Below are positions 9,704-41,353 of a stretch of 64,000 nt of DNA, piece after piece. The position numbers were made by a program, and so were the translations under genes. Within the stretch, counting starts at the first letter, position 1. Each line of letters opens with the position of its first letter. The notes under the pieces were generated by a model. It saw nothing but the letters and a program-made list of their open reading frames with translations, did no database searches and had not been told where the DNA came from. The stretch is taken from assembly GCF_025854275.1 (NCBI RefSeq), contig NZ_CP107567.1, positions 310,001 through 374,000 on the forward strand. The letters run 5' to 3'. This stretch comes from Streptomyces peucetius (GTDB lineage Bacteria; Actinomycetota; Actinomycetes; Streptomycetales; Streptomycetaceae).

Positions 9704-9717
9704 TGGAACAGGTTGCA
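9704..9717. promoter_or_regulatory. KstR-type operator in the fadD19/echA19-like divergent promoter
   Basis: TGGAACAGGTTGCA matches the 14-bp mycobacterial KstR consensus TNNAACNNGTTNNA at all fixed positions. It lies 23 bp upstream of the crotonase start. A second match occurs in front of the FadE26-like gene at 41340. KstR-type repression is inferred. Confidence 0.6.
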
Positions 9718-9745
9718 GCAGCCGGGCGGCCAGTTCAATAGTTTC

Positions 9746-9760
9746 CTGACACTCAGTCAG
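9746..9760. promoter_or_regulatory. Inverted repeat, probable TetR-type operator (type II)
   Basis: CTGAC-ACTCA-GTCAG is a perfect 5-bp-arm inverted repeat followed by ATTCT. The repeat at 30157-30173 shares the TTT/CTGA left flank and the GTCAGATTCT right flank, so the two are likely sites of one regulator. Confidence 0.55.
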
Positions 9761-9841
9761 ATTCTCTTGCCCGTGCCCCTTCCCAGTTGTGCCTGCCGGC
9801 GCTCTAATGACGGCCAGGTTCGCCGGGTGTCAGGAGGAGCG

Positions 9842-11488
9842 GTGGAGTACAACCTTGCCGACCTGTTCGAATCCGTGGTCGACGTCGTGCCCGACCGCGA
9901 GGCGCTCGTGTACATCGACCGTCCCGGGACGGGTGCGCAGCGCCGGCTCGACTACGCCGCACTCGACGCGGCGGCCAACCGGATCGCCCACCATCTGCTC
10001 GACACGGGCATCGGGCCCGGCGAGCATCTCGGGCTGCACCTCTACAACGGGATCGAGTATCTGCAGACCGTGCTGGCCTGCCTCAAGGCGCGGATCGTGC
10101 CGGTGAACGTCAACTACCGGTACGTCGAGGACGAGCTGGCCCATCTGTACCGCGACGCCGACATCACCGCGCTCGTCTTCGACGCGGAGTTCACCGAGCG
10201 GGTGGCAGCGGTGCGGCCACGGACCGGAAAACTGCGGCACCTCGTGCGCGTCGGCACACCGCCCGACGGGGCACCGCGCCTGGACGCGGTCGCCTTCGCC
10301 GACGCCGAGGCGGCCGGCTCGCCGCGGCGCGGCTTCGCGCCCCGGTCTGCGGACGACCGGTTCATCATCTACACGGGCGGCACCACGGGCATGCCCAAGG
10401 GGGTGGTGTGGCGACAGGAGGACCTGTTCTTCGCCGGGCTGGGCGGCGGCGCACCGACCGGCGAGCCCGTGTCACGGCCGGAGGAGCTGGCCGAGCGGGT
10501 GGCCGCGGGCGGCGACGGGATCACCTTCTTCCCCACTCCCCCGCTGATGCACGGCACGTCGACGCTCACCGCGTTCATCGGCTTCAACTTCGGCCAACGG
10601 GTCGTACTGCACCGCAAGTTCGTGCCGCACGAGGTGCTGCGCACGATCGAGCGGGAGAAGGTCACCAGTGTCTCGCTGGTCGGCGACGCGATGCTGCGGC
10701 CGCTGATCGACGCACTGAACGGACCGCTCCGGGGATGCGACCTGTCCAGCCTCTTCAGCGTCTCCAGCTCCGGGGCGATCATGTCGGACTCGGTGCGCGA
10801 CGAGTTCGGCGCGCTGGCTCCGCACGTCATGCTGCTGAACAACTTCGGCTCCTCCGAGTCGGGGTTCAACGGCACCGCGACCGACGACGCAGGACCCGCG
10901 ACCGGCTTCCGGCTGCGGGTCAACGCCCGTACGACGGTGGTCGATCCGGCCACGTACGAACCGGTGAAGCCGGGCGGGACCGGCCGGGTCGCGCAGTGCG
11001 GGCACGTACCGCTCGGCTACTACAGGGACCCGGCGAAGTCGGCGGAGACGTTCTTCGAACGCGACGGTGAACGATGGGTGCTGCTCGGCGACATGGCGAC
11101 CGTGGACGAGGACGGCATCGTCACCGTCCTGGGCCGGGGCTCGCAGTGCATCAACACCGGCGGCGAGAAGGTGTACCCGGAGGAGGTCGAGCAGGCGCTC
11201 AAGGCCCACCCGGACGTGTACGACGCGCTCGTCGCGGGCGTACCGGACCGCAGGTGGGGCAGCCAGGTGGCCGCCGTCGTGCAACTGCGCGAGGGCGTGT
11301 CCGCACCCAGTCTGGACGCGATCCGGTCACACTGCCGCAACCGGCTGGCGGGCTACAAGATCCCCCGCCGGCTGGTGATCACCGAGGAGATCCGGCGCTC
11401 GCCGAGCGGCAAGGCGGACTACCGCTGGGCCCGGGAGGTCGTGACCCAGGCGGCGGAGGGCCGCCGTCCAGCGGGCGGCGTGGTGTGA
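9842..11488 (+). CDS. Acyl-CoA synthetase, FadD19-like (sterol/branched acid CoA ligase)
   Basis: 548-residue ANL-superfamily adenylating enzyme. P-loop-like YTGGTTGMPKGV at about residue 180, GSSESGFNG, GDMATVDEDG, a hinge in GRGSQCINTGG and a C-terminal SGKADYRW lysine motif. The sequence pattern, including MHGTSTLTAF and GDAMLRPL, is that of FadD19, which activates C26/C24 steroid carboxylic acids with ATP and CoA. GTG 9842 has AGGAGGAG upstream. The gene is divergent from the crotonase/DUF35/Ltp operon with 160 bp between starts holding two candidate operators. Substrate assignment rests on synteny and family. Confidence 0.85.
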   Translation: MEYNLADLFESVVDVVPDREALVYIDRPGTGAQRRLDYAALDAAANRIAHHLLDTGIGPGEHLGLHLYNGIEYLQTVLACLKARIVPVNVNYRYVEDELAHLYRDADITALVFDAEFTERVAAVRPRTGKLRHLVRVGTPPDGAPRLDAVAFADAEAAGSPRRGFAPRSADDRFIIYTGGTTGMPKGVVWRQEDLFFAGLGGGAPTGEPVSRPEELAERVAAGGDGITFFPTPPLMHGTSTLTAFIGFNFGQRVVLHRKFVPHEVLRTIEREKVTSVSLVGDAMLRPLIDALNGPLRGCDLSSLFSVSSSGAIMSDSVRDEFGALAPHVMLLNNFGSSESGFNGTATDDAGPATGFRLRVNARTTVVDPATYEPVKPGGTGRVAQCGHVPLGYYRDPAKSAETFFERDGERWVLLGDMATVDEDGIVTVLGRGSQCINTGGEKVYPEEVEQALKAHPDVYDALVAGVPDRRWGSQVAAVVQLREGVSAPSLDAIRSHCRNRLAGYKIPRRLVITEEIRRSPSGKADYRWAREVVTQAAEGRRPAGGVV

Positions 11489-12132
11489 TCAGTCTCCGTC
11501 GCCCGGGCCGCCAGGCAGGATCCGCTCGCCGTTGAAGACCCCGAGCCGTTCCCGGTACAGCTCCAGCGGTACGCCGTTCGGGTCGCGGGAGGCCAGCGGG
11601 CCCTCGGGCCGTTCCGGCGTCGGCCGCGGCGGGTCCAGGGGCAGCAGCGGGGGCGCGCCCTCGATCACGAGCCGGCGGACGAGCCCGGGGTACTACTCGG
11701 CCAGGAGTACGGCGGCCGCGCCGCCCATCGAGTGGCCGACGACATCGACCGGGCCGAGCTCCAGGGCCCCGATGAAGGCGCTCAGGTCGTCCCTGAACGC
11801 CTCGAACCCGTAGCTGCCGGGCCAGTCGCTCAGCCCGTGGCCACGGAAGTCGGGGCGTACACGCGGCGGGTCGCGGCCAGGCGCTCGGCGATGCGTGCTC
11901 GCGCAGCGCCTCGACGTCGTCCACCTGGCGGTCGCAGCGGTGGGTGCCCGCGTCGGCCGGTACGGCAGAGCCCGCCGGTGCCGCGCAGGTCGAGCAGCAC
12001 GAGCCGCCGGCGGGTGGTCAGGCCGCCGAGATCGCCGAGGTACGCGGAGGCACGCATCGGCCCGCCCGGCAGACAGATCAGCGGCTCGCCCTCCCCTGCG
12101 GTCCGGTAGGCCAGTTCAGTGCCGTTTCGCAC
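11489..12132 (-). pseudogene. Chimeric gene remnant: two alpha/beta-hydrolase pieces plus a VOC-family tail
   Basis: Read on minus from GTG 12132: an alpha/beta-hydrolase N-terminus (VRNGTELAYRTAGEG, LPGGPM, LLDLRGTGG) needs a 1-nt shift near 11970 to continue as SAVPADAGTHRCDRQVDDV. At about 11895 it switches to the middle of a different hydrolase (RIAERLAATRRVYAP, another 1-nt shift, then RGHGLSDWPGS, GHSMGG at about 11730). That is interrupted by an in-frame TAG (11693-11695). Near 11600 it passes into ASRDPNGVPLELYRE, which is typical of glyoxalase/VOC C-termini, ending at 11489. No intact enzyme can be made. A few indels could be sequencing errors, but the change of family cannot. Confidence 0.75.
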
Positions 12133-12226
12133 GACGTGAAGGACAAGGCGTGGACGTCCCCCGGAGGTTCCCGCGGGGACGTCCCTCGGCCGTGCGCGTG
12201 TGGCCGTGCGACTGGGGCTGTGTCCG

Positions 12227-12835
12227 TCAGGGGCGGCGCGGCTCGCGCCGCATGGCCCACAGCACCGGCCCCTCCCCCGGCAGCCGCAGCTCCTTGCGCA
12301 CGGTGAAGCCGAAGTGCTCGTAGAATGGGAGGTTGGACGGTTTCGAGGACTCCAGACAGACGGGCAGACCCGCCGCGTCGGCCTGGGCGAGCCCTGAGCG
12401 CAGCAGGGCGGCCCCCTGCCCCTGGCCCTGGGCGGCCGGGTCGGCGCCGATGAGTGCCAGGTACCAGTGCGGCTCCCGGGGTGTGTGCTCGGCGGCCGCC
12501 TCGACGGCTTCCCGGAACAGCCCGGCCCGGTCACCGAGAATGTTCTGGAGCTCCTGGACGGTCTCCGCGTCGGGCACGGCCTTGGCCTGCGCCTCCGGGG
12601 GCACCCAGAACGCGGCCGCCGCCTCGGTGCGCTCACACACTCCGTGGTGGACGTACTGCCGGGTGAAGATCGTGGTGAAGTAACGGCCCAGTGCTCCCTC
12701 GCGCAAGGCGTCGTCGGGGAAGAACCAGCGCATCATCGGGTCGTCGTCGAAGGCGCGGGTCAGGGTGCCGGTGATCAGCGGAGCGTCGTCGATCGTCGCC
12801 GGCTTCGGCGTGTTCCTTATCGGCATACGGGCCAT
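12227..12835 (-). CDS. GNAT-family N-acetyltransferase
   Basis: 202 residues with GNAT motif A (LIGADPAAQGQGQGAALL, about residue 130) and motif B (YEHFGF). It transfers an acetyl group from acetyl-CoA to an unknown amine; the N-terminal MRWFFPDD segment is common in Streptomyces homologues of this type. Start ATG 12835 (an ATG three codons in is also possible). Monocistronic, flanked by the hydrolase remnant and the divergent paaK-like gene. Confidence 0.85.
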   Translation of the reverse strand: MARMPIRNTPKPATIDDAPLITGTLTRAFDDDPMMRWFFPDDALREGALGRYFTTIFTRQYVHHGVCERTEAAAAFWVPPEAQAKAVPDAETVQELQNILGDRAGLFREAVEAAAEHTPREPHWYLALIGADPAAQGQGQGAALLRSGLAQADAAGLPVCLESSKPSNLPFYEHFGFTVRKELRLPGEGPVLWAMRREPRRP

Positions 12836-12938
12836 TCTGCACTTGTTGATCTTGCGGTTGCGGGGCGGGGCCCGGTCCGTTCACCGAGCAATGCCTTGAC
12901 GGGCGCCGGGCCGGGCTGAATAACTGATCCCGAATGGA

Positions 12939-12958
12939 ACGACCGAATGATCGGTCGT
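12939..12958. promoter_or_regulatory. Inverted repeat in front of the phenylacetate-CoA ligase gene
   Basis: ACGACCGA-ATGA-TCGGTCGT: perfect 8-bp arms, 25 bp before the ligase start. It has the CCGA-N4-TCGG core common to TetR-type operators of CoA-ester catabolism; PaaR-like control is a guess. Confidence 0.55.
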
Positions 12959-12982
12959 CCGGTTCGGGACGGGAGCAAGCGG

Positions 12983-14269
12983 ATGACGGACCTGCTGGAC
13001 GCGGCGGAGCGGCTGGGCCGCGAGGAGCTCGAGGCGCTGCAACTGGAGCGGCTGCGGGCGACCTTGCGCCACGCGTACGACAATGTGGCCTTCTACCACG
13101 AGTCGTTCGACAAGGCGGGGCTCCGCCCGGAGGACTGCCGTTCGCTCGCCGACCTCGCCCGGTTCCCGTTCACCGCCAAGACGGACCTGCGGGACAACTA
13201 CCCCTTCGGCATGTTCGCGGTCGAGCAGTCCCAGGTGCGCCGTATCCACGCCTCCAGCGGCACGACGGGCCGGCCCACCGTCGTCGGCTACACCGAGCGC
13301 GACCTGGACACCTGGGCCGACATCGTCGCCCGCTCCCTGCGCGCCGCCGGCGCCCGCCCCGGCCACAAGGTCCATGTGGCCTACGGCTACGGCCTGTTCA
13401 CCGGCGGCCTCGGCGCCCACTACGGGGCCGAACGGCTCGGCTGCACCGTCATTCCGGCGTCCGGCGGGATGACCGCCCGCCAGGTCCAGCTGATCTGCGA
13501 CTTCCGGCCCGAGATCATCATGGTCACCCCCTCGTACATGCTCACGCTCCTCGACGAGTTCGAGCGCCAGGGCGTCGATCCGCGCACGACCTCGCTCAAG
13601 GTCGGCGTCTTCGGCGCCGAGCCGTGGACGGAGGAGATGCGCTGCGAGATCGAGGAACGGTTCGCGATCGACGCCGTCGACATCTACGGGCTCTCCGAGG
13701 TGATGGGCCCGGGTGTGGCGCAGGAATTCGTGGAGACCAAGGACGGCCTCCACATCTGGGAGGACCACTTCTATCCGGAGATCGTCGACCCGTTCACGGG
13801 CGAGCTGCTGCCGGACGGCGAGGAGGGCGAGCTGGTGTTCACCTCGCTCACCAAGGAGGCCATGCCGGTCATCCGCTACCGGACGAGGGACCTGACGCGG
13901 CTCCTGCCGGGCACGGCACGGGTCTTCCGGCGGATGGAGAAGGTGACCGGCCGCAGCGACGACATGGTGATCCTGCGCGGGGTGAACCTCTTCCCCACCC
14001 AGATCGAGGAGATCGTCCTGCGCACGCCCCATGTCGCCCCGCACTTCCAGCTCCGGCTCACCCGCGAGGGCCGCCTCGACGCACTGACCGTGCGCGCCGA
14101 GGCCCGCGCCGAAGCGACCGGCGAGCAGCGCGCCGCCGCGGCGCAGGCCATCGCGGCGGCGGTGAAGGACGGCGTCGGGGTGTCGGTCGCCGTGGAGGTG
14201 GTGGACCCGGAGACGCTGGAGCGCTCGGTGGGCAAGATCAAGCGGATTGTGGACATCCGAGGGGCATAG
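12983..14269 (+). CDS. paaK: Phenylacetate-CoA ligase (PaaK family)
   Basis: 428 residues, the usual PaaK length. Motifs: FTAKTDLRDNYPFGMF, ASSGTTGRPTVVGYT (P-loop, about residue 95), YGYGLFTGGLG, IYGLSEVMGPGV, YRTRDLTRLLPG and C-terminal ERSVGKIKR. It activates phenylacetate with ATP and CoA, the first step of the aerobic phenylacetyl-CoA pathway. Start ATG 12983 follows GGGAG; an ATG at 12947 lies inside the operator-like palindrome and is rejected. No paaABCDE ring-epoxidation genes are in the window, so it is either an isolated activator or serves another aryl acid. Confidence 0.9.
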   Translation: MTDLLDAAERLGREELEALQLERLRATLRHAYDNVAFYHESFDKAGLRPEDCRSLADLARFPFTAKTDLRDNYPFGMFAVEQSQVRRIHASSGTTGRPTVVGYTERDLDTWADIVARSLRAAGARPGHKVHVAYGYGLFTGGLGAHYGAERLGCTVIPASGGMTARQVQLICDFRPEIIMVTPSYMLTLLDEFERQGVDPRTTSLKVGVFGAEPWTEEMRCEIEERFAIDAVDIYGLSEVMGPGVAQEFVETKDGLHIWEDHFYPEIVDPFTGELLPDGEEGELVFTSLTKEAMPVIRYRTRDLTRLLPGTARVFRRMEKVTGRSDDMVILRGVNLFPTQIEEIVLRTPHVAPHFQLRLTREGRLDALTVRAEARAEATGEQRAAAAQAIAAAVKDGVGVSVAVEVVDPETLERSVGKIKRIVDIRGA

Positions 14270-14571
14270 GGCCTGCCGCCGTCCCAAGGGTCCGCCGCTG
14301 TCTGACTGCCGGGAGTGCACGTCGTTTCGATGTGCCGCCAGGGCTCGGAGCTTGCGATGTCGTGGGCTTCTTCATTGCGCAGCCGCAACGAGGCGTTGGA
14401 CAGATCGATCACGGGCGGATAGACAAAGACACGAAGGTCTTGGTCCGTCGGTTTCCTGATGGGTCGAGGACGTGGGATGAGGGGCGGCGCGTCGTGGACC
14501 CGTGCTCGACGTCGACGGAGTCCCTGCGGGAGGCGCCGACACTGTCGCCGGCTGATGCGGTGAGGAGAAGG
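14270..14571. other. Gene-free stretch, 302 bp
   Basis: Both strands were inspected. Short open frames occur on minus but none resembles a known family or has a ribosome binding site. It probably contains the promoter of the small gene at 14572. Confidence 0.4.
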
Positions 14572-14880
14572 ATGTCGCGAAAGGTGAAGCGATTCGCCGT
14601 GGTGACATGGGCCGTGCTCATCATTGCCGGCGGCGGGCTGACGCTGTTGCTCGGCGAGCCGGGGCCGGTCGACTGGGACGACTGGGGGCGGGACGAACCG
14701 CCGTCGCCGACGTCCTGCCCTTCTTCCGGTGCAGTCGCCGACGGGACAGATACCGCTCCGTGGCCCACACCGTCCATGCCCCAGCCCCCGACGTACGCGC
14801 CGGTGCCGACACAGCCCGTTCCTGAGCCGGCACGACCGGTCGCAACCGTGATTGCGTGCGCATACCGCGTGGAGGACTGA
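14572..14880 (+). CDS. Small single-pass membrane protein with Pro-rich extracytoplasmic tail, 102 aa
   Basis: ATG 14572 is preceded by GAGGAGAAGG. A basic start (MSRKVKRF) and one hydrophobic helix (about residues 8-27, VVTWAVLIIAGGGLTLLL) are followed by an acidic, then Pro/Thr/Ser-rich tail (PTPSMPQPPTYAPVPTQP) with two Cys. Likely anchored with the tail outside. Unrecognised family. Confidence 0.6.
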   Translation: MSRKVKRFAVVTWAVLIIAGGGLTLLLGEPGPVDWDDWGRDEPPSPTSCPSSGAVADGTDTAPWPTPSMPQPPTYAPVPTQPVPEPARPVATVIACAYRVED

Positions 14881-15014
14881 TCCACCCCGCTGGTGTCGTA
14901 CGCACTTTGCCCAAGCGGGCCTCAAACGCCTCTCACGCGAAGCTCACGCACGCTCGGTGAACACGCCGTGGCCGGCCTCAAGACCTGGTGACTGCGGCAC
15001 ACCCGGACCAACGA

Positions 15015-15027
15015 TCAGATGATCTGA
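15015..15027. promoter_or_regulatory. Short palindrome upstream of a P450 gene
   Basis: TCAGAT-G-ATCTGA, perfect 6-bp arms, 115 bp before the P450 start, in an unusually A/T-rich patch. Candidate operator; could be chance. Confidence 0.3.
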
Positions 15028-15141
15028 ACGAAACGCCCCAGCCGTTTGGTCCCGCGCACGGTTGGCAGACTCTTGATCAGAACTGCTGTGTGATCCGCCG
15101 GCCATCTGTCTGTGTCTGCCCTTCTCACCGCTGGAGTCTTT

Positions 15142-16431
15142 GTGTACCTGTCCAACCGCAAGGCGTGTCCCCTTGATCCGGCCGCTGATCCTGTTGAGGA
15201 GGCCGGACTGCTGAGGAGTCTCGGCCCTCTGGTGCGCGTCGAGCTTCCAGGGGGTGTGGCCGCCTGGGCAGCCACCGATCACGCCACCGCGCAGAAGGTC
15301 CTCGGCCACGAGGCCCTGACCAAGGACCCGGCCCACTGGCCGGATCTCAACGCGGGTCGCATACGCGACGACTGGGAACTCATCGCCCTGGTCCGCGGGG
15401 CAGCCATGCTCCACGAAGGCGGCAGCGAGCACCGCAGACTCCGGCAGCTGGTCAGCACGGCCTTCGCCCGGGCGCCCATCGAGGCACTGCGTCCGCGCAT
15501 CGAACAGATCGCCGCCGAACTCCTCGACGACCTCCTCGCCACGGGCACGACCGGGCCGGTGGACCTGCGTGAGCACTTCGCCTATCCCCTGCCGGTGCGC
15601 GTGATCTGCGAAGTCCTCGGCGTCCCGGACACAACGGTGAGCGAGCTGCGCCACCGTTTCGACCGGCTCGTCACCCCCCGGAAGAACGCCTCCGGCGAGG
15701 AGGACATCCGCGTCGCGCAGATGGACATCGTCAGCAGCCTCACGGCGCTGATCGAAGCCAAACGAAGCCGGCCGGGCGACGATCTGACGACAGCGCTCAT
15801 CCAGGCACGCGACGAGAGCGACCGGCTGAGTCAGCGGGAACTGGTGGAGACGCTGTTCCTCGTCCTCATCGCCGGACACGAGACCACGATCAACTCGATC
15901 ACCAACACGGCCCACGCCCTGCTGCAGAACCCCGCCGTACTCACTGCCGTACTCCAGGCAGAAGACTCCGACGCCGCGTGGGAGGCGGCTGTGGAGGAAG
16001 GCCTGCGGTACGCGTCACCAGTGCGCCACGCCCTGCTGCGGTACGCCGTGAAGGACGTCGAGATCGCGGGAGTCACCATCGCTCGGGGCGAGCCGGTCCT
16101 GGCGAGCCTCGCGGCCGCAGGACGGGACACGACACGCCACGAGAACCCCGACCGGTTCGATGTGGCCCGGTCCACCCGCCGTGAGCACCTCGCCTTCGGC
16201 TTCGGCGCCCACTTCTGTCTGGGGGCCCGTCTGGCCAAGCTCGAGACGAAAATCGCCCTTCGAGCCCTCTTCACGCGGTTCCCCGCCCTGGCCCTCGCCG
16301 AAGAGCCTGCCCGTCTGTCGTCCATCCCCCTGCAGGGATACAGCACCCTGCCGGTACGTCTGCAGAGCCGGCCGGTGCTGCCGGATCCGGAACGCGGGTG
16401 CCCGGCCGACGCTGCTCCCGGCGACGCCTGA
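15142..16431 (+). CDS. Cytochrome P450 (soluble, class I)
   Basis: 429 residues. I-helix oxygen-binding motif AGHETTINS (about 240), ExxR as E286-G-L-R289, heme loop FGFGAHFCLG with thiolate Cys359. The pattern fits the CYP107/105-like bacterial group. Start set at GTG 15142, five bases after GGAG; GTG 15112 would add ten residues. It needs ferredoxin/reductase partners, none of which is in the window. It converges with the P450 at 16548. Substrate unknown; probably secondary metabolism. Confidence 0.88.
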   Translation: MYLSNRKACPLDPAADPVEEAGLLRSLGPLVRVELPGGVAAWAATDHATAQKVLGHEALTKDPAHWPDLNAGRIRDDWELIALVRGAAMLHEGGSEHRRLRQLVSTAFARAPIEALRPRIEQIAAELLDDLLATGTTGPVDLREHFAYPLPVRVICEVLGVPDTTVSELRHRFDRLVTPRKNASGEEDIRVAQMDIVSSLTALIEAKRSRPGDDLTTALIQARDESDRLSQRELVETLFLVLIAGHETTINSITNTAHALLQNPAVLTAVLQAEDSDAAWEAAVEEGLRYASPVRHALLRYAVKDVEIAGVTIARGEPVLASLAAAGRDTTRHENPDRFDVARSTRREHLAFGFGAHFCLGARLAKLETKIALRALFTRFPALALAEEPARLSSIPLQGYSTLPVRLQSRPVLPDPERGCPADAAPGDA

Positions 16432-16547
16432 CGGCGCCACAGCCCCGGAAGGCGTCTGTGACAGAACCGCGGGCCGGGGGTGGGGGGCCGGGCAGGGAAC
16501 GCACCTTGCCACCGGCCCCGCCACCCGCCGGCCCGCCGGGATCGCGG

Positions 16548-17960: not shown

Positions 17961-18278
17961 GGTCACGAGTCCTCCGTGAAGCAGCAGCATGGACGTGCGG
18001 ATCGATGAGGGATCACCCACCGTGCTCCAGTTGCCAAGAGCCGGGCCGGTGCACGCACTCGGAATGCGGTGTCCCTCGCGCACGATCAAGAAGCAGGAGC
18101 GCCCGCAGCATATCCATGTCGGAGACGGGCCAGGCAGGCGGTCCCTGGCCGAACTCGTCGGCCGGCCACGGGCGTTGCTCGAGGACCCGGTCTCGCACGA
18201 ACCGGATGCGGATGATGAGATTCCCCGCGGCGGCCGCACCGGCCACTTCACCAGCACGCAATCTAAGGACCTCCCGAA
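17961..18278. other. Divergent promoter region between two P450 genes, 318 bp
   Basis: No gene recognised. A minus-strand open stretch (about 18240 to 18013) has some coding character but no start codon with a ribosome binding site and no known family, so it is not called. The region should hold both promoters. Confidence 0.4.
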
Positions 18279-19637: not shown

Positions 19638-19904
19638 GCGCAGCCATGTGCGCTCCAAGGCCCCGGGCCCCGGCCCGGACACCAGCCGTGAAGCAGGTCG
19701 GGGGCAGCACGGCGGGGCGCCGAGGAGCAGGCGGCGGACGCGAGCAGCAGGAGGCCCGCGCCGACGGGGATCTGCCGGGTACTCCGACGGGAGTAGTGCC
19801 GGGGCGGGCACGAAGTCCCGTTGCAGCCATACCAGTTTGGGCGGAGCGGTCCTCCCGGAACTTTCGTCCAAGACAGGATCGCCGAAGTCGGCGACCGTAG
19901 GGGC

Positions 19905-20205
19905 ATGCGCAGCTACGAAGCGGGCTCCGCCCCCATGGACCGTGAGGCCGAGGACGGCTGGGAAGTCGCCCATCCCGTCGGCGGCACGTCTCCCGGTGGC
20001 GTCCGGATGGCCGGATTCCGCGACCGCATCGCTGCCGGGCTGGACCTGCGGGTGCTCCCCCAGCCTGCCGTGATCGTCGTCATCGGTTTCGGGGAGAGTC
20101 CGTTCACCGTCGAGGGCGCCCCCGGGCGCCGGTCCCTGAGCAGCCTTGTCGCCGCTCTGTCGCCCGGTCCGGCCCGCATCCGCGGGGAGCGCGTCGAGTG
20201 CATCG
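19905..20205 (+). pseudogene. Truncated AraC-family regulator (N-terminal part only)
   Basis: From ATG 19905 the frame gives VRMAGFRDRIAAGLDLRVL, HPAV-like PQPAVIVVIGFG and RIRGERVECIEM, the sensor-domain pattern of a common Streptomyces AraC-type regulator. It stops matching at about 20205, before any helix-turn-helix. The downstream sequence belongs to another gene family in another frame, so this is a deletion junction. The N-terminal ~100 residues remain. Confidence 0.65.
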
Positions 20206-20463: not shown

Positions 20464-20475
20464 CGCCTCGGTCCG

Positions 20476-30249: not shown

Positions 30250-30273
30250 AAAGACGCGCAGAGAGGGTTCCGT

Positions 30274-32154: not shown

Positions 32155-32183
32155 CGGCCGGTCAGGTCGACGGGCCCTCGGTG

Positions 32184-33716: not shown

Positions 33717-33790
33717 GGCGGGACCTTAACGCCTCCGGGTCGGATCGTGCCGGTCCCGCGTGGCCCGAACACCGCACCCGGCCACGCCGT

Positions 33791-36118
33791 CTAACCGCCG
33801 GGCGTCTGCTCCGCCACGGTCCGGCGCAGCGCGGCGACCTGCCGGTACAGCTCGACGGCCTCCGCGTGGCGCCCGAGCTGTTCCAGGCAGTGCGCCTCGT
33901 CGTTGCGGCTGGACAGGGTGTCGGGGTGGTCGGGGCCCAGCACCCGCTCGCGGGCGCGCGCCACCTGCTCGTACACGCCCATGGCGTCGGACCAGCGGGC
34001 CAGCCAGCCGAGTGCCACAGCCACCTCCCGCAGGCTCACCAGGGCCTCGGGGTGGTCGGGGCCGAGCACCTGCTCACGCAGGGCGCTCACCTCGCGCGCC
34101 TCGGCCAGCGCCTCGTCCCAGCGGCCGAGCCGGCCGAGGTTGACGCCGAGGCCGTGGCGGGCGCGCAGGGTCTCCGGGTCGTCCGGGCCGGCTGTACGGG
34201 TGCGGTCGGCGACGAGGCCGCGGTAGACGTCGAGGGCCTCGGCGCCGCGGCCGAGCCGGCCGAGGCAGATACCGGTCTCGTAGCGGGCGGCGAGGGTGTC
34301 CGGGTGGTCGGGGCCCAGTGCCTGGGCCCGTGCTGCCGCCACGTCCTGGTAGGCGGTCAGCGCGTCCAACCAGCGGCCCAGCTGCCCGAGCGCGTGGGCC
34401 GCCTCGTAGCGGGTGACGAGCGTGTCGGGGTGGTCGGGGCCGAGCACCCGGGCGCGGGCCTGTGCGACGTCCTCGGCGATCCGGTGCGACTCCTCGACGC
34501 GTCCCATGCGGCCCAGGTTGAAGGCGAGGTTGTGGCGGCAGCGCAGGGTGTCGGGATGGTCGGGGCCCATGGTGCGCTCGCGGGACTCGAGGACGGCCGC
34601 GTACACCCGGTCGGCCTCGGTGTACCGGCCGAGGCCGCCCAGCACATAGGCGGTCTCCTGGCGGGCGGCGAGCGTGTCGGGGTGGTCGGGGCCCAGCGCC
34701 CGCTCCCGGCCGGTCGCGACATGGCCGAACTCCGCGAGCGCGTCCGTGGCGCGGCCGGTGCGGCTGAGGCTGAAGGCGACCTCGTAGCGGCTGGAGAGCG
34801 TGTCGGGATGGTCGGGGCCCAGCAGCGTCTCCCGGTCGGCGGCCACCGCGCGGTGCACCTCGCCCGCCTCGTCCCAGCGGCCCAGGCGCCCGAGGCTCAG
34901 GCCCGCGTTGTGCCGGGTGTCGAGTACGGCGAGCAGCTCGGGCGGCGGGGTGGTCCGCTCGGAGCCGGCGGACGCCGCAACCGCCTGGTGCGCGGCCGAC
35001 GCCCCCACCGCCTGGTGCGCGGCGGACGCCGGAACCGCCTGGTGCGCGGCAGGGGCCGGGACGTCCCCGTGCGGTGCGGGGCGGGTGGTCCACTGCCCGG
35101 TCAGCGCCGCCGTGTGGTCGAGGCCGGGCGGCACCGGACCGGCGGCGACGGCGCCGGTCGCCCGGTGGCCGACGGTCATCCCGCGCGTCCAGTACGGCAG
35201 GGCGGTCCCGCGTGCCGCGTCCGGCACGGGGTCGCGCTGCAGGGGCACCACGGCCGGCCGGTGGCGCACATGGCCCGCGGCGTGGATGCGGTGCCTCAGG
35301 TCGCCCGCGGCTCCGGGCCGTTCCTCGGGTGTCTTGGCGAGCAGGTCGAGCACCATCAGGTCGAGGAACTCGGGGATCTCGTCACGGTGTTCGCGCAGCG
35401 GCCGGGGGGCCGTGTCCCGGTGGCCGACGAGGATGGACCAGGTGTCGCCGACGTCGAAGGGCGGAGCGCCGGTGGCCAGTTCGTAGAGCACGCAGCCCAG
35501 CGAGTACAGGTCACTGCGGTGGTCGACCTGGCCGCCGGCGATCTGTTCGGGCGACATGTAGTGCGGCGTGCCCATGGCGATGCCCGTGCCGGTGAGCTTG
35601 GACGTGAAGCCGATGTCCTCGCCGAGGCGCGCTATTCCGAAGTCGCAGATCTTCACCCCGCCGCCGGTGAGCCGCATGATGTTCGCGGGCTTCAGATCAC
35701 GGTGCACGATGCCCCGTTCGTGGGTGTAGTCGAGGGCGTCGGCGATCTGGTCGGCGATGTCGACGACGTCGGCGACCGGCAGCGGGCGCTGCTTGTTGTC
35801 GTCGAGCAGCTGGCTGAGGTTGCGGCCCTCGAGCAGCTCCATCACCAGGTACAGCACGCCCTCGTGCTCGCCGAAGTCGTGGACCACGGTCACGCCGCGG
35901 TGCTGGAGCGCCGCGGCGACGCGGGCCTCGCGGCGGAAGCGTTCCCGCAGGACCCCGGTGAAGGACCGGTCGGGCTGCGATCCGATCGGCTTGAGGCACT
36001 TGACGGCCACATGCCGTCCGAGAGATTCGTCGCGGGCCCGCCACACCTCGCCCATACCGCCTCGCCCGATGAGATCGAGCAGTCGGTACCGGCCCTGGAT
36101 CAGCCTGGTTTCCGCCAT
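33791..36118 (-). CDS. Ser/Thr protein kinase with C-terminal tetratricopeptide repeats
   Basis: 775 residues. Hanks-type kinase at 1-280: GRGGMGEVW P-loop, VAVKCL lysine, HRDLKPANI catalytic loop, DFGIAR, GTPHYMSPEQ. A linker (about 300-400) has three AAHQAV-x-AS repeats. Residues about 410-775 hold eight to nine 42-residue TPR units with the recurring GPDHPDTL motif. There is no membrane segment, so it is a soluble scaffold-type kinase, unlike PknB. ATG 36118 overlaps the upstream DUF2236 gene by 19 nt. The 42-residue repeat makes the DNA periodic at 126 bp. Confidence 0.92.
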   Translation of the reverse strand: MAETRLIQGRYRLLDLIGRGGMGEVWRARDESLGRHVAVKCLKPIGSQPDRSFTGVLRERFRREARVAAALQHRGVTVVHDFGEHEGVLYLVMELLEGRNLSQLLDDNKQRPLPVADVVDIADQIADALDYTHERGIVHRDLKPANIMRLTGGGVKICDFGIARLGEDIGFTSKLTGTGIAMGTPHYMSPEQIAGGQVDHRSDLYSLGCVLYELATGAPPFDVGDTWSILVGHRDTAPRPLREHRDEIPEFLDLMVLDLLAKTPEERPGAAGDLRHRIHAAGHVRHRPAVVPLQRDPVPDAARGTALPYWTRGMTVGHRATGAVAAGPVPPGLDHTAALTGQWTTRPAPHGDVPAPAAHQAVPASAAHQAVGASAAHQAVAASAGSERTTPPPELLAVLDTRHNAGLSLGRLGRWDEAGEVHRAVAADRETLLGPDHPDTLSSRYEVAFSLSRTGRATDALAEFGHVATGRERALGPDHPDTLAARQETAYVLGGLGRYTEADRVYAAVLESRERTMGPDHPDTLRCRHNLAFNLGRMGRVEESHRIAEDVAQARARVLGPDHPDTLVTRYEAAHALGQLGRWLDALTAYQDVAAARAQALGPDHPDTLAARYETGICLGRLGRGAEALDVYRGLVADRTRTAGPDDPETLRARHGLGVNLGRLGRWDEALAEAREVSALREQVLGPDHPEALVSLREVAVALGWLARWSDAMGVYEQVARARERVLGPDHPDTLSSRNDEAHCLEQLGRHAEAVELYRQVAALRRTVAEQTPGG
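34960..35045. repeat. 27-bp coding repeat (three copies) in the kinase linker
   Basis: Three near-identical 27-bp units containing GCCTGGTGCGCGGC encode the AAHQAV-x-AS peptides. They lie between the kinase and TPR parts and could vary in copy number. Confidence 0.7.
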
Positions 36119-37056
36119 CGCGTGCTGTCGCCCCCGTCGCTGTGCTGCGCCCTCCCCGGCCGGTCCAGTATGGCGGCCCGCCTGCGCAGTTTGTACGGGG
36201 CCGGGCGTGTTGCGGGCCCGAGCCGGGCGATCGCTTGCCGGATGTGACCGGGAGGCAGCCGCCAGCGTATACGGGAAGGTACGCAGCGCAGCAGGTCGGC
36301 CGTGGCGGTCAGGCGCCGTGTCACCCGGTCCGGTGGCGGTGCGGTTCTGCCGTACAGCCCGTGCGCGTAGGACGGCAGGGTGTCGTACGCGAGCGCCGCG
36401 ACCGGTCCCCACAGCAGTGCGCGGGCGGGGACCAGCGCGGGTGCGACGGGGGGCCGGCGCAGGAAGTCGTCGACGTCGCGGGCTTCCGGGCCGGCGGCGA
36501 GCCGCGGCCGTACGCGCTCGAAGTAGGCGGCCAGCTGCCCGGTGGTGGCGGGCACGTCCGCCGGATCGAGGCCGACCAGGCGGGCGGCCCGACGCTGCTC
36601 GTCCAGGTAGCGGTCGGCGAGTTCGTCGTCGAGCGGAAGCCCGGAGCGGCGGGCCACCTCCAGGTAGGAGGCGACCTCCGCGCAGTGCACCCACAGCAGC
36701 AGGCCGGGCTCGTCCACGCCGTACCGTTCGCCGGTGTCCGGGTCGGTGGCCTTCAGGCGGGAGTGGATGCGGCGGACGCGGGCGCCCGCCTTCTCGGCGG
36801 CGCCGGTGGTGCCGTACGTGATGGTGCCGACGAAGTCCGCGGTGCGCATCAGCCGGCCCCAGGCGTCCTGGCGGAAGTCCGAGTTCTGCATGACGCCGCG
36901 GACGGCACGCGGATGGAGCGCCTGCAGGTAGAGGGCGCGTACGCCCGCGATCCACATGACCGGGTCGCCGTGGATGTTCCAGGTCACGGAGCCGGGCCCG
37001 AACAGTCCCGGGTCGGCGTCGTCCTTCGGGCTCAGGTGGGCCCACGGAGCGTTCAT
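36100..37056 (-). CDS. DUF2236 (oxygenase MpaB-like) protein
   Basis: 318 residues. DUF2236 signature: GPGSVTWNIHGDPVMWIAGVRAL, LQALHPRAVRGV (likely heme or metal His), FVGTITYGT, and VDEPGLLLWVHCAEVASYLE. Relatives are the rubber-cleaving Lcp and fungal MpaB, heme-dependent oxygenases; the function of actinomycete copies is mostly unknown. ATG 37056. Overlaps the start of the kinase by 19 nt, so the two are expressed together and the kinase might act on or report its activity (speculative). Confidence 0.85.
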   Translation of the reverse strand: MNAPWAHLSPKDDADPGLFGPGSVTWNIHGDPVMWIAGVRALYLQALHPRAVRGVMQNSDFRQDAWGRLMRTADFVGTITYGTTGAAEKAGARVRRIHSRLKATDPDTGERYGVDEPGLLLWVHCAEVASYLEVARRSGLPLDDELADRYLDEQRRAARLVGLDPADVPATTGQLAAYFERVRPRLAAGPEARDVDDFLRRPPVAPALVPARALLWGPVAALAYDTLPSYAHGLYGRTAPPPDRVTRRLTATADLLRCVPSRIRWRLPPGHIRQAIARLGPATRPAPYKLRRRAAILDRPGRAQHSDGGDSTRWRKPG

Positions 37057-37381
37057 GTCACCCAGCACGCTTCCGGTCTGCAAGTCCGCCGCCTGGCATC
37101 CGTGCCACACCCCTCCGCATACAGAACCGCTCGGCACACCGGTACGCCTCGAGACGCCTCGAGACGCCTCGTGCTTGGTCCTACCCACCACGCACGGCTG
37201 GAAGCCCCGGAGTTCCGGCAGCGCGACGAGAGGGCCGGACCGGCGGCGGGGGTGGGCGGAACACCGCGGGCGGGGGTGTTCCTGCGCAAAGTGTGGTGGG
37301 TGTGCCTCGTTCGTCCGCCGGGTCTCTACGCCGTGTGCGGCCGCCCGGTCCGCTCAGCACGCTCCCGGGCCCGAGGGGCCT
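37057..37381. other. Gene-free stretch, 325 bp, with a short tandem repeat
   Basis: No coding frame is convincing. It holds 2.8 copies of ACGCCTCGAG (37144-37171) and should carry the promoter of the DUF2236/kinase operon. Confidence 0.4.
37144..37171. repeat. 10-bp tandem repeat, 2.8 copies
   Basis: Unit ACGCCTCGAG repeated without mismatch. Confidence 0.75.
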
Positions 37382-38080
37382 TCACGGCGTCCGGAATCCG
37401 CGGAAGGTCACGTGCTTGCGGACCTCGAAGCCGAGCCGCTCGTACATTGCGACGGCACCCGTGTTGGCCGCGGCCACGTGCAGGACCGGACGTTCGTTCC
37501 GGGCTGTGATCCGTGCGGTCAGTGCGCGTATCAGGCGGGTGGCGTGGCCTCGTCCACGTGCCTCGGGGGCGGTGCACACGGCGCTGATCTCGGTCCATCC
37601 CGGTGGACGGAGCCGTTCGCCGGCCATGGCGACGAGGGTGCCGTTCTCGCGGATGCCCAGGTAGGTGCCGAGTTCGTGGGTCCGGGGCCAGAACGGTCCG
37701 GGCTGGGTCCGTGCGACGAGGTCGAGCATCTCGGGAACGTCGTCGGGGCCCAGTTCGGCAACGCGTGTCTCTGCCTGGGCGTGTCCGGGGCGGCACTCGG
37801 CGGGGCCGGTCATCTGGAAACCCTCGAGTGTGAAGACCGGTTCCCAGTCCGGTGGCGGGGTCGCCGGACTGCTGAACATGTCGGCGAACGCTCCGCGGCC
37901 GAGCAACCGGGCCAGATCGGCCCACCCTGCCGCTCCCGGGTCGGCGGGCACCGAGGAGAAGGTGGCGACCTCCGGCAGATAGACAGCCGCCCGGCCGAGC
38001 CGCCGGGCCAGGTGCGCGTGGTGGCCTCGCAGTGACTGCCGCACCGGATCGTCGAGTACCACGGCGTCGCGGTCGGCCAT
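37382..38080 (-). CDS. GNAT-family acetyltransferase
   Basis: 232 residues. N-terminal half binds the unknown acceptor; the GNAT motif A reads CTAPEARGRGHATRLI (about residue 175), motif B MYERLGFEVRKHVTF at the end. This fits the FR47-like two-domain acetyltransferases. ATG 38080. A C-terminal fragment of a related GNAT sits 1.9 kb away at 39994, on the same strand and on the other side of the small-ORF/aminotransferase cassette. Confidence 0.85.
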   Translation of the reverse strand: MADRDAVVLDDPVRQSLRGHHAHLARRLGRAAVYLPEVATFSSVPADPGAAGWADLARLLGRGAFADMFSSPATPPPDWEPVFTLEGFQMTGPAECRPGHAQAETRVAELGPDDVPEMLDLVARTQPGPFWPRTHELGTYLGIRENGTLVAMAGERLRPPGWTEISAVCTAPEARGRGHATRLIRALTARITARNERPVLHVAAANTGAVAMYERLGFEVRKHVTFRGFRTP

Positions 38081-38492
38081 CGTCGTTCGCCTCTCGTGTA
38101 GGGGGCACGTGAAGTCAGCGGTGGCCGTGTCCTGTCCAAGAGACCGTGACGTCGTTGAGGCGGGCGGCGGTCCGAGCTGTCATCTCCTCGCGGTCGCAGT
38201 GTAGCCGCGCCGGATGGTGGGCTCTCCCGCCGCCCGGGGAACCGGGGTCCGTGCGGGGCGCCGGGCGGGGCTCCTGCTCCCTGGTGGGAGGCCTCGAGAG
38301 GGCGCTGGTGTCGAAGGGGGCCGCCGCCATGACCCCTCAGAAGCGACGCCGGGACGGTGACGGTCGGGCCGAGGCAGGGGGCGGGGGAGCCTTGCTGGGT
38401 TGGCACTTGCTTGCAACTCTGTGCTGAGTACTTGGCTCGATGGTCGGACTTACGAGCCGCCGATTCCTGCCTCTGGACCATGGAGGTCCTCC
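38081..38492. other. Gene-free stretch, 412 bp
   Basis: No coding frame has convincing bias or a ribosome binding site. The last 100 bp are relatively A/T-rich and probably contain the promoter of the small ORF at 38493. Confidence 0.4.
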
Positions 38493-38495
38493 ATG
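38480..38495. promoter_or_regulatory. Palindrome covering the ribosome binding site and start codon
   Basis: CATGGAGG-T-CCTCCATG (from 38479): perfect 8-bp arms. The left arm is the GGAGG ribosome binding site, the right arm includes the ATG at 38493, so a hairpin here could hide the start; it may equally be a protein-binding palindrome. Confidence 0.5.
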
Positions 38496-38696
38496 AATCA
38501 GCCGACGTCGGCGCCGCCATTGTTCGAGCGCCCCCTCCGCACCGGCGAGCCGCTCTTCGCCTCCGGTCGGCTTCCCACCACGGAGTCGGTGCTCGAGGAA
38601 CTCGGTGACCGTGGACGTCACGCCCGTATCGCACTCGGTGTGACCTCCGCGCCGTTCGGTGCGTGTGTGGAGACCGAGATGGTGGTCGAATGCTGA
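38493..38696 (+). CDS. Small ORF, 67 aa, coupled to a PLP-dependent enzyme
   Basis: ATG 38493 with GGAGG six bases upstream. The product ([18 protein letters not shown]..., [16 protein letters not shown] at the end) has no signal peptide or membrane segment. It has two Cys, one at the very C-terminus, after a charged, helix-prone middle ([13 protein letters not shown]). It matches no family I know. Its stop codon overlaps or abuts the candidate starts of the aminotransferase gene. It could be a ribosomal-peptide precursor (leader plus short C-terminal core) or a translated leader controlling the next gene; both are guesses. Confidence 0.55.
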
Positions 38697-39988
38697 AGAT
38701 GACCAGTACGGGACGGCGCGACGCCTCGGGCAACGGGGCCGGGAACCAGGACAACCCGCTTGAGATGCTCTCGCTCGACCAGTTGCGTCGACGGCGGAGC
38801 ATGAAATGGCGCACGCATCCGGCGGACGTCCTGCCGTTGTGGGTGGCGGAGATGGATGTCCCGCTCGCGCCGGCGGTCGCCGATGCCCTGCACGAGGCCA
38901 TCGAGGCAGGTGACACCGGGTATCCCGCCGGGACCGAGTTCGCCGAGTCGCTGGCCGGCTTCGCACGGCGGCGGTGGAACTGGGACGGCGCGGCGATCGA
39001 CCGAGTCGCCGTCATCCCCGACGTGATGACGGGCGCCGTCCAGGTGCTGCGACTCATCACCGAACCGGGCGACCCGGTCGTCGTCAACTCCCCGGTGTAC
39101 GCGCCGTTCTACGCCTTCATCACCCATGACGACCGCCGGATCGTCGAGGCGCCGCTCGGAGAGAACCTGCGGATCGACCCGGAGGTGCTCGAGGACACGT
39201 TCCGGCGCGTCCGCCGGGAGACCGGCCAGGGCAAGATCGCCTACCTTCTCAGCAACCCGCACAATCCGACCGGCACCGTGCACACCGCCGATGAGCTCTC
39301 CGCCGTGGCGGAGCTGGCTCGCCGCTACAAGATCCGTGTCGTCGCCGATGAGATCCACGCCCCGCTCGTGCTGCGGGGCGCCCGGTTCACGCCGTATCTG
39401 AGCGTGCCCGGGTCCGAGGACGCGTTCTCGCTCATGTCGGCGACCAAGGGCTGGAACCTCGCCGGGATCAAGGCGGCACTCGCCGTCGCAGGGCCTCGAG
39501 CGGCCCCTGATCTGCGCAGGATGCCCGAGGAGGTCCACCACGGCGCCAGCTATCTGGGCGTGATCGCCCACACGGCAGCCTTCCGTGAGGGGGACGCATG
39601 GCTCGACGCACTGCTGGCCGGGCTCGACGCGAACAGGGCTCTGCTGGGTGAACTCGTCGCCGAGCACCTGCCGGGCGTCGGGTACGCCAGGCCGGAGGGG
39701 ACCCACCTGGCCTGGCTCGACTGCCGGTCCCTCGGGCTCGGCCCGGAGGAGGCAACGACAGAGCTCGCGGTTGTCACCGACCTGGCCGGCCCCGCACGAC
39801 TCTTCCTGGACCACGCCAGGGTGGCGCTCTCGTCCGGTCACATCTTCGGGACGGGGGGAGCCGGGCACGTCCGCCTGAACTTCGCCACCTCCCAGGCCGT
39901 ACTCACCGAGGCCATTACCCGAATGGGACGCACGGTCACCGATCACACCGGCCGGTCGCACGGCCCCCGCTCGCCGGGACGGTCGTGA
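38690..39988 (+). CDS. PLP-dependent aminotransferase class I/II, MalY/PatB (C-S lyase) type
   Basis: 432 residues from ATG 38690 (ATG 38699 also possible). Motifs: [19 protein letters not shown], the MalY/PatB N-terminus; [36 protein letters not shown]; and [12 protein letters not shown] with the PLP lysine. Family members are cystathionine/cysteine beta-lyases or aminotransferases. It starts within the stop region of the 67-residue ORF (GAATGCTGA), indicating translational coupling. The Ser/Arg/Pro-rich last 20 residues exceed the family. Possible roles: sulfur amino-acid cleavage, or tailoring of the small peptide (inference). Confidence 0.85.
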
Positions 39989-39993
39989 CTGCT

Positions 39994-40111
39994 TCAGCGC
40001 TCCGTGCCGGTCTCACAAGAGGCTTCCTCACGGCGCGCCCGTAACCGCCGGAAGGTCTCACCCGCTCGCGCACGTCGAAGCCGAGGTGTCCGTAGAGCGC
40101 GTCGCAGCGTG
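39994..40111 (-). pseudogene. C-terminal fragment of a GNAT acetyltransferase
   Basis: Reading minus, RCDALYGHLGFDVRERV is a GNAT motif-B/C-terminal sequence; with a 1-nt shift it continues as TFRRLRARREEAS to a TGA at 39994. Compare MYERLGFEVRKHVTF of the intact GNAT at 37382. The acyl-CoA dehydrogenase stop directly abuts it, so the body of the gene is gone. Confidence 0.55.
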
Positions 40112-41290
40112 TCAGCGGCGTACCCGCGGCATCCCCAGTCCGATCCAGGAGATGATCTCGCGCTGGATCTCGTTGTTGCCGCCTCCGAAGGTGAAGATGA
40201 CGGCGGAGCGGTAGCCGCGTTCCAGTTCGCCGCCGAGAACGGACCCGGCCGAGCCCTCCTTCAGCGGGCCCGCCGCGCCGACGACCTCCATCAGCCAGGC
40301 GTAGGCGTCGCGCCTGGCCTCGGAGCCGTAGACCTTGACGGCCGAGGCGTCCTGCGGGGTGAGGGTGCCGTCCTGGACGGCGTTCACCATCTGCCAGTTG
40401 AGCAGTTTCATCGCGTCGAGCCGGCTGTGGGTGCGGGCGAGCCGGCCGCGCACCCAGCCGAGGTCGATGACCCGGCGGCCGTCGGCGAGTTTCGTGTCGG
40501 CGGCCCAGCGCTGGACGTCGCGCAGGGCGCGGATCGCCATGGTGCCGTGGGCGGCGAGGGTGACCCGTTCGTGGTTGAGCTGGTTGGTGATCAGCCGCCA
40601 GCCCTTGTTCTCCTCGCCGACCCGGCGCGAGACGGGGACGCGGACGTTCTCGTAGTGGCTCGCGGTCGTGTCGTGGGAGGCGAGGGTGTTGATGAGGGTG
40701 CACGAGTAGCCGGGGTCGGACGTCGGTACGAGGAGCATGGTGATGCCCTTGTGGGGCGGGGCGTTCGGATCGGTGCGCACCGCGAGCCAGACCCAGTCGG
40801 CGGTGTCGCCGTTGGTGGTCCAGATCTTCTGCCCGTTGACGACGTACGTGTCCCCTTCCCGTACGGCACGCGTCCTGAGGGCGGCGAGGTCGGTGCCCGC
40901 GTCGGGTTCGCTGTAGCCGATGGCGAAGTCGATCTCGCCGGAGAGGATCTTCGGCAGGAAGTACGCCTTCTGCTCGTCGGTGCCGAACTGCATGATCGTC
41001 GGGCCGACCGTGTTGAGTGCCATCAGCGGCAGGGGCACACCGGCCTGGGCGGCCTCGTCGAAGAAGATGAACTGTTCCATCGGGGTGAGCCCCCGGCCGC
41101 CGTACTGTTCGGGCCAGCCGACCCCGAGCCAGCCGTCGGAGCCGAGGCGGCGGATCGTCTCGCGGTAGAAGCGTTTCCGGGCGGCCGGTTCGGCGAACCG
41201 GGCATAGGCGTTGTCGGGGACGAGTTTCGCGAAGTAGGTGCGCAGTTCGGCGCGCAACTGCTCCTGCTGCGGCGTGTATCGAAGGTGCAC
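40112..41290 (-). CDS. Acyl-CoA dehydrogenase, FadE26 (ChsE4 alpha-subunit)-like
   Basis: 392 residues. RYTPQQEQLRAELRTYFA start, GWPEQYGGRG, IGYSEPDAGTDLA, VNGQKIWTT, NQLNHERV, and a C-terminal FTFGGGNNEIQREIISWIGLGMPR, all close to the FadE26 pattern. In mycobacteria FadE26 is one half of an alpha2beta2 enzyme with FadE27, oxidising C27 sterol side-chain CoA; no beta subunit is adjacent here. GTG 41290 after GGAGGGG. A KstR-type operator (41340-41353) lies 50 bp upstream. Heteromer partner and substrate are inferred. Confidence 0.85.
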   Translation of the reverse strand: MHLRYTPQQEQLRAELRTYFAKLVPDNAYARFAEPAARKRFYRETIRRLGSDGWLGVGWPEQYGGRGLTPMEQFIFFDEAAQAGVPLPLMALNTVGPTIMQFGTDEQKAYFLPKILSGEIDFAIGYSEPDAGTDLAALRTRAVREGDTYVVNGQKIWTTNGDTADWVWLAVRTDPNAPPHKGITMLLVPTSDPGYSCTLINTLASHDTTASHYENVRVPVSRRVGEENKGWRLITNQLNHERVTLAAHGTMAIRALRDVQRWAADTKLADGRRVIDLGWVRGRLARTHSRLDAMKLLNWQMVNAVQDGTLTPQDASAVKVYGSEARRDAYAWLMEVVGAAGPLKEGSAGSVLGGELERGYRSAVIFTFGGGNNEIQREIISWIGLGMPRVRR

Positions 41291-41339
41291 GACCCCTCCA
41301 GGCTCTCGCGGTCCGTCCCTTGCGCGGCGGCGCACACAG

Positions 41340-41353
41340 TAGAACGTGTTGCA
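41340..41353. promoter_or_regulatory. KstR-type operator upstream of the FadE26-like gene
   Basis: TAGAACGTGTTGCA matches TNNAACNNGTTNNA at every fixed position and lies in an A/T-richer promoter patch 50 bp before the GTG start. It is the second such site in the window (other: 9704). Confidence 0.65.

Follow-up and report, generated by a model that had tools for sequence, protein, structure and literature searches.

We analyzed a window of 64,000 nucleotides (the whole stretch considered here, C1:310001-374000) from the genome of Streptomyces peucetius, a single contig of 8.05 Mb. The window carries two sites resembling the operator of the mycobacterial regulator KstR, and we hold with high confidence that both serve as operators for a TetR repressor of the KstR type that controls scattered sterol side-chain genes. 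The two sites very probably belong to a KstR-type sterol side-chain regulon present in most of the sampled Streptomyces, an extent that a preliminary description of the window, right in its proposal of a dispersed KstR regulon, had understated. That proposal is supported by a regulator with a site of its own, by the location of the best sites at sterol-type genes and by the conservation of both window sites. What is new here is that the regulon is largely decoupled from the ring-opening enzyme KshA, that a cholesterol oxidase belongs to it and that a second operator-like repeat stands at some of its promoters.

The two predicted operators are as follows.

9704-9717, no strand assigned: site 1, KstR-type operator TGGAACAGGTTGCA, between the echA19-like and fadD19-like genes; exact match, 17.8 bits
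41340-41353, no strand assigned: site 2, KstR-type operator TAGAACGTGTTGCA; exact match, 22.3 bits

Both were found at the positions described earlier, and they are the only matches, both exact, to the consensus TNNAACNNGTTNNA in the window. Dinucleotide shuffles (100) had a mean of 0.06 matches per window and none had two. We also scored the window with a weight matrix made from 47 published KstR sites of M. smegmatis and M. tuberculosis, i.e., from mycobacterial sites only (Kendall 2007, Table 3). The two sites were the top-ranked 14-mers, followed by a third at 10.5 bits. Among 200 dinucleotide shuffles, a score of 22.3 bits was reached in one, while 17.8 bits was reached at least once in five and twice in none.

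As had been proposed, each site is within about 50 bp of the predicted start of a sterol side-chain gene. Site 1 is 22 bp from the start of the echA19-like gene (9681, minus strand); site 2 is 49 bp upstream of the start of the fadE26-like gene (41290, minus strand), within a 91-bp gap after an esterase gene. Site 1 is also 124 bp upstream of the start of the fadD19-like gene as taken here (9842, plus strand). All gene starts are predictions. The start at 9842 was taken by eye from a ribosome-binding sequence, with an NCBIfam match running from residue 1; a composition-based gene finder extended this frame back across site 1.

The genome does encode a KstR-family protein. A TetR-type KstR homolog was found at C1:2228083-2228787, 1.9 Mb from the window sites. 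Compared to solved structures, it matched KstR chains with E ~4e-38 and KstR2 with just 4e-4; its top match, 3bjb (E 6.9e-40), is labeled merely as TetR-family. The NCBIfam KstR model gave 195 bits, with the next family at 46; since the equivalog cut-off is 280, we call the protein a KstR-type homolog and not a certified KstR. The Streptomyces homologs compared scored 188-204 bits with the same model, and automated KstR-type names were given to 2 among the 120 homologs listed (P0052, P0112).

The identity of the homolog was 41-45% to the full-score KstR proteins of family f3 and 44-48% to f77 proteins (260-279 bits), compared to 31-34% for the second copies present in six f3 genomes. A site of at least 17 bits was located upstream of all 23 f3 proteins and of the eight f77 proteins of that group, while the second copies had no site of at least 11 bits within 350 bp upstream. 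The recognition-helix region is VALGTLYRYFPSK here and VAVGTLYRYFPSK in the aligned f3 KstR rows. In a tree (unrooted, with long branches), eight Streptomyces proteins formed one group (100/100) in the same part as f77 KstR (100/99) and other rows. Seven of nine paralogue-labeled rows stood apart (98/100), and one f3 KstR row was misplaced beside a very long branch. The identity, the motif and this unrooted, long-branched tree disfavor the Streptomyces protein being a second f3-type copy. Judging from sequence, it is a probable KstR orthologue.

The promoter of kstR carries the motif as well: TAGAACAAGTTTCA is 111 bp before kstR and, by eye, ~53 bp before a divergent glycosyltransferase gene, and TnnAACnnGTTnnA was present in the kstR promoter of this genome and of all 29 relatives' loci. 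A possible KstR orthologue in S. coelicolor, SCO2319, was noted as 32% identical and without synteny in the available part of Kendall 2007 (PMC1995591). SCO2319 is likely the same gene as the homolog described here; in the searched open-access literature it is mentioned nowhere besides that paper. We also observed two transposase-like genes of 556 amino acids in opposite orientation (C1:2221138-2222808 and 2246417-2248087), alike across the 150 residues shown, that flank the stretch from kstR to cyp125.

The preliminary description had also considered that matches might be distributed at random. Of the genome sites listed, the seven with the highest scores are each located before sterol-type genes:

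maoC/adh/hsd4-type operon site, 26.1 bits
ltp thiolase site, 25.9 bits
fadE26 site, 22.3 bits
cholesterol oxidase (choA) site, 19.9 bits
kstR site, 19.5 bits
fadA5/cyp125 site, 18.6 bits
echA19/fadD19 site, 17.8 bits

The ranking covers sites that two patterns picked out or that were met next to genes; the list from the loosened pattern covers up to 4.9 Mb, later sites that break both patterns are incompletely covered, and the choA site was found via its gene. The targets are scattered, at 0.319, 0.351, 2.21-2.24 and 7.57 Mb. The choA site, TAGAACGTGTTCCC at C1:7570364-7570377, lies 26 bp upstream of the gene for a cholesterol oxidase that bears a Tat-like signal. The 12 listed solved relatives of its product are all cholesterol oxidases (best E 3.2e-204), and it has no NCBIfam family at 1e-40. 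FadA5 is above the steroid-thiolase cut-off (686 bits vs 515), and the P450 is closer to CYP125 (1.4e-150) than to CYP124 (3.5e-94) or CYP126 (5e-75).

Conservation was assessed in a sample of 150 same-genus genomes, this one included. For footprinting, we used the best 30 loci per gene out of the 102-140 genomes bearing the gene; the kstR, echA19, fadE26 and cyp125 sets include this genome. The fadE26 site had the exact pattern in the loci of all 29 relatives, and no other stretch of 14 columns in the aligned upstream region was as conserved. The echA19 site was at the same place in all 29, exact in 20 and with the outer (first) T changed in nine; upstream of echA19, 14 of 207 stretches were more conserved than site 1, in part an effect of the second repeat (see below). 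Two imperfect sites preceded cyp125/fadA5 in 29 of 29 relatives. For choA, 21 of 30 relatives had a site of at least 14 bits before the start as taken, five had one only just behind the start, in the code of the signal peptide, and four had none.

These data bear on the simplest alternative, that both sites are functionless chance matches. The loose consensus occurs 24 times in the genome (9 times for the reversed pattern), with 11 of the matches in coding sequence and a further one (274700) within a doubtful open reading frame (ORF), and a looser pattern shows no enrichment, as a chance origin would have it. Against this stand the presence of each site at the same place in all 29 relatives examined, a mean column conservation of 0.93 within the sites compared to 0.48 (echA19) and 0.33 (fadE26) elsewhere upstream, the shuffles, none of which had two such scores, and the sites at the corresponding promoters in mycobacteria. 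A chance origin is disfavored as far as sequence can tell, and we regard it as extremely improbable. Counting of the loose consensus was rejected as a sole test, given the matches in coding sequence and the rarity of the loosened pattern relative to its control; we therefore used the matrix score and conservation.

The regulator and the module of side-chain genes co-occur. A KstR homolog (E ≤1e-60) was found in 140 of the 150 genomes, with nothing better than 2.7e-10 in the remaining ten. EchA19 was found in 102 genomes, FadE26 in 102 (not counting G085, with only a 55% paralogue) and CYP125 in 104; all three were present in 99 genomes and at least one in 105. KstR was present in 104 of these 105, a comparison that treats related species as independent, as do all our co-occurrence tests. 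In the one genome without it, G071, the assembly has a gap (10 N) next to an aldehyde dehydrogenase gene, the usual place of kstR and its neighbors. The pattern TAGAACNNGTTBYA, chosen after the sites of this genome were known and with perfect palindromes counted on both strands, was found on average 6.29 times per genome (control 1.20) in the 104 genomes with KstR and the module. The average was 1.53 (control 0.92) in the 36 genomes with KstR that lack the module and 0.67 (control 0.67) in nine genomes lacking KstR, G071 left out; with G071 included, the ten gave 1.10 vs 0.70.

The genes at the two window loci are listed below.

5626-6792, minus strand: thiolase homolog, which we take to be ltp3-type from position; NCBIfam NF006180, 711 bits (cut-off 514); best solved relatives thiolase-type
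6782-7894, minus strand: lipid-transfer thiolase homolog, presumably ltp4-type from position; NCBIfam NF005924, 568 bits (cut-off 419)
7891-8838, minus strand: ChsH2/DUF35-type protein; Pfam OB_ChsH2_C and zf-ChsH2 above cut-off, no NCBIfam match
8860-9681, minus strand: echA19-like enoyl-CoA hydratase; NCBIfam PRK07799, 408 bits (cut-off 316)
9842-11488, plus strand: fadD19-like acyl-CoA synthetase, divergent from echA19, the name FadD19 being our assumption from position; NCBIfam NF005863, 741 bits (cut-off 543)
40112-41290, minus strand: fadE26-like acyl-CoA dehydrogenase; best solved relative 4x28 chain A
41382-42572, minus strand: LipL/LipE-like esterase, upstream of site 2 on the same strand; NCBIfam LipL, 240 bits, below the cut-off of 650

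Downstream of the echA19-like gene, on the same strand, the ChsH2/DUF35-type gene is thus followed by the two lipid-transfer/thiolase homologs. The fadE26-like product matched 4x28 chain A with E 9.5e-137 and Tcur3483 with E 4.7e-127, the rest of the solved structures being at 3e-43 or weaker; 4x28, listed as acyl-CoA dehydrogenase, we take to be FadE26-FadE27. We do not claim the esterase gene as a KstR target. The side-chain pathway of sterols includes FadD19, FadE26-FadE27 and the Ltp3-Ltp4 lyase, which cuts the C24-C25 bond in C24-branched chains, according to the text available of PMC6678751.

Several findings weigh against assigning the two sites to a KstR regulon of sterol genes. With two mismatches allowed, TAGAACNNGTTCTA was rarer in the genome than its reversed control (79 vs 167). 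Each of the two fadA5/cyp125 sites deviates from the consensus, and 9 of 30 related choA loci have no site of at least 14 bits before the start. The footprinted loci, as the 30 best matches per gene, over-represent closer relatives. EchA19 scored 366 bits, below the equivalog cut-off of 400, hence the name EchA19-like; no gene for a FadE27 partner adjoins FadE26 in the window, the only part of the genome searched for it. The KstR score is below its own cut-off, KstR is retained in 36 of 45 genomes lacking the module, and KshA, treated below, has no match in this genome.

Some of these findings would fit a KstR-related paralogue that uses the same operator and serves another isoprenoid (e.g., the cell's own hopanoids, or branched-chain acids) and not sterols. 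Besides the low NCBIfam score, KstR and the kstR/glycosyltransferase site are kept in 23 of the 24 module-lacking genomes examined, and a glycosyltransferase-methyltransferase-'prenyltransferase' gene set is divergent from kstR (region C1:2224720-2228787). The persistence of KstR and its site without the side-chain module makes a role outside the module likely. Such a paralogue is nevertheless unlikely in view of the 19.9-bit site just before a cholesterol oxidase gene, a P450 of the CYP125 and not the CYP124 type, and a FadA5 above the steroid-thiolase cut-off. The identities argue in the same direction, being higher to the f3 and f77 proteins, both groups with the motif upstream, than to the second f3 copies that lack it.

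As for ring opening, KshA_C had no match in this genome (HsaC, KstD and KstR2 were not searched there). In a class-wide sample of 296 genomes, 70 had KshA_C matches, and as a positive control all 23 family f3 genomes with a full-score KstR had a match with E 1e-85 or better. Among the 28 same-genus genomes of this sample, a strong match was found in one, G465 (306 bits), weak ones in G013, G056 and G583 (63-93 bits, above the Pfam cut-off) and marginal ones in two more (E ~5e-4 and 7e-4). All six carry KstR, so a strong KshA was present in 1 of 25 KstR-bearing Streptomyces. Together with the absence in this genome, and compared to 23 of 23 in f3, this frequency indicates a regulon largely decoupled from KshA.

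One could still suppose that the regulon is part of a complete sterol catabolism, with the rings opened by enzymes that are unrecognised here. We observed that the KshA of G465 is located in what resembles, by eye, an Hsa-type ring cluster (within C12:220000-239999), and the five weaker KshA_C matches point the same way. In another relative, L265, a KstD-like 3-ketosteroid dehydrogenase gene (2-1429; partial at the stretch end, 771 bits vs a cut-off of 788) is divergent from a cholesterol oxidase gene. We consider complete catabolism improbable in view of the missing KshA_C and of its rarity in the genus, and the 20 kb surrounding the KshA of G465 had no site of at least 14 bits.

The promoter of the echA19-like gene has a further element.

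9746-9760, no strand assigned: second inverted repeat CTGAC-ACTCA-GTCAG, 28 bp beyond site 1

The repeat, CTGAC-N5-GTCAG, was present in each of the 30 echA19 loci, one of which is from this genome. It was also found beside the maoC and ltp KstR sites here and beside such sites in relatives L256-L260; in the kstR region extracted from this genome (L017) it occupies positions 233-247, 4926-4940 and 11935-11949. At most 120 bp before an LLM-type oxidoreductase gene near kstR, it was present in 63 of the 73 named loci (17 bp here). On the other hand, the core of the repeat was near a KstR site in none of the 30 kstR, 30 cyp125/fadA5 or 30 choA loci and in 1 of 30 fadE26 loci. In the 202,002 bases of this genome that were examined, TGAC-N5-GTCA was counted six times, and in three cases a KstR site is at most 65 bp away. 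Searches of open-access literature with four spellings of CTGAC-N5-GTCAG found none.

Other candidate sites were set aside. Sites of the TTGAACATGTTCAA type (C1:3231314, 4876181, 4876225 and 7453346; 14-16 bits) were not counted, as they resemble another palindrome family. At one promoter, near a TetR-like gene, two copies of the TTGAACATGTTCAA (or TTGAACGTGTTCAA) palindrome stand in tandem; this palindrome probably serves as operator for a different regulator. The near-matches at 469174, 2763956 and 1716485 (16.6-17.4 bits) were dropped as being inside predicted genes. Two more have no recognised sterol-type neighbor: 1091422 (17.0 bits) is intergenic, with 905 bp to the closest start, and 274700 (17.6 bits) is within the doubtful ORF, of 120 amino acids. 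We also observed TGCAACAAGTTGCA (C1:7770922-7770935, 11.9 bits) between divergent genes for a P450-like protein and a PadR-like regulator.

Strong KstR-type sites were seen in relatives at additional genes. In L253, L254, L255 and L261, such a site is 47-67 bp before an acyl-CoA dehydrogenase-like gene, which in three of the four is located, by eye, behind paa-like genes. In L256, L257 and L258, a gene near the kstR region that resembles an acyl-CoA dehydrogenase gene of double length (FadE34-like by eye) has a strong site 41 bp ahead of it; no such gene was noticed around kstR in this genome.

The mechanism that we propose starts from the observed sites, homologs, placement, conservation and co-occurrence, and would take binding, repression, ligand and enzyme activities by analogy with mycobacteria. 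There, binding of KstR to its operator and release by sterol-26-oyl-CoA are established, as far as the accessible parts of PMC6678751 and PMC9782250 go. Without sterols, the KstR-type repressor would occupy 14-bp palindromes just upstream of its target genes and block transcription of fadE26, of the echA19-DUF35-ltp-ltp genes and probably of the divergent fadD19 too. When sterols are present, a sterol-26-oyl acid or its CoA thioester, made by the cyp125/fadD19-type enzymes, would release the repressor. The genes then derepressed would encode cholesterol oxidase, CYP125, FadA5, FadD19, EchA19, FadE26, the Ltp pair with the ChsH2-like protein, and the hsd4-type and MaoC proteins. Their products may act on ring A by oxidation and make the side chain shorter, and C24-branched chains of plant sterols are probably among those shortened.

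More tentatively, and as a reading rather less likely than not, we suggest that an old KstR regulon might persist in most Streptomyces, where it would serve, with cholesterol oxidase as the first enzyme, to trim the side chains of sterols while the rings stay unopened, giving short-chain steroids. It might be read jointly with a regulator acting at CTGAC-N5-GTCAG, and KstR might also run the glycosyltransferase operon, a job that would explain its survival where the sterol genes were lost. If so, Streptomyces would convert plant, fungal or animal sterols to short-chain steroids rather than consume them. Should the KstR-type regulon itself hold true, the processing of sterol side chains would be a common trait of the genus and the regulon older than thought. 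Strains that leave the rings closed would lend themselves to the production of steroid intermediates, and KstR together with its operator could be used as a ready-made sensor of sterols.

Among the matches listed in open-access literature (subscription papers being outside the search) there was no report of a Streptomyces KstR regulon. One survey, in the part available, found 55 of 57 Streptomyces genomes without steroid pathways (PMC4810484), and another, likewise available in part, had KstR arise in the ancestor shared by Mycobacterium and Rhodococcus (PMC3388012). Our finding of KstR in 140 and of the side-chain module in 105 of 150 Streptomyces is contrary to both. CYP125A13 of Streptomyces peucetius hydroxylates cholesterol in vitro; the available text of that paper makes no mention of KstR and describes a search for ring-oxidation genes as under way (PMC9728343).

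In comparing the regulon with known systems, we presume some of the gene names behind M. tuberculosis Rv numbers. The available part of Kendall 2007 (PMC1995591) reports gel shifts in which KstR bound the sites at Rv3503c/Rv3504, Rv3515c/Rv3516, Rv3545c/Rv3546 and Rv3573c/Rv3574, and it names fadA5, fadE26, fadD19, echA19 and ltp2-4 as regulon members. With the M. smegmatis and M. tuberculosis regulon described there, the present one shares the operator, autoregulation and the sites at fadD19/echA19, fadE26, cyp125/fadA5 and kstR. Unlike the mycobacterial regulon, it lacks KshA, has scattered targets, includes a choA site and has a second palindrome at several of its promoters. KstR-type control is also shared with Nocardioides simplex and Saccharopolyspora hirsuta, which, unlike this genome, carry ring-degrading genes such as kshA, according to the accessible portions of PMC7807495 and PMC9782250. 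A putative KstR site is described in the latter, as far as available, at the choE gene of N. simplex, outside the clusters of that species, comparable to the choA site found here.

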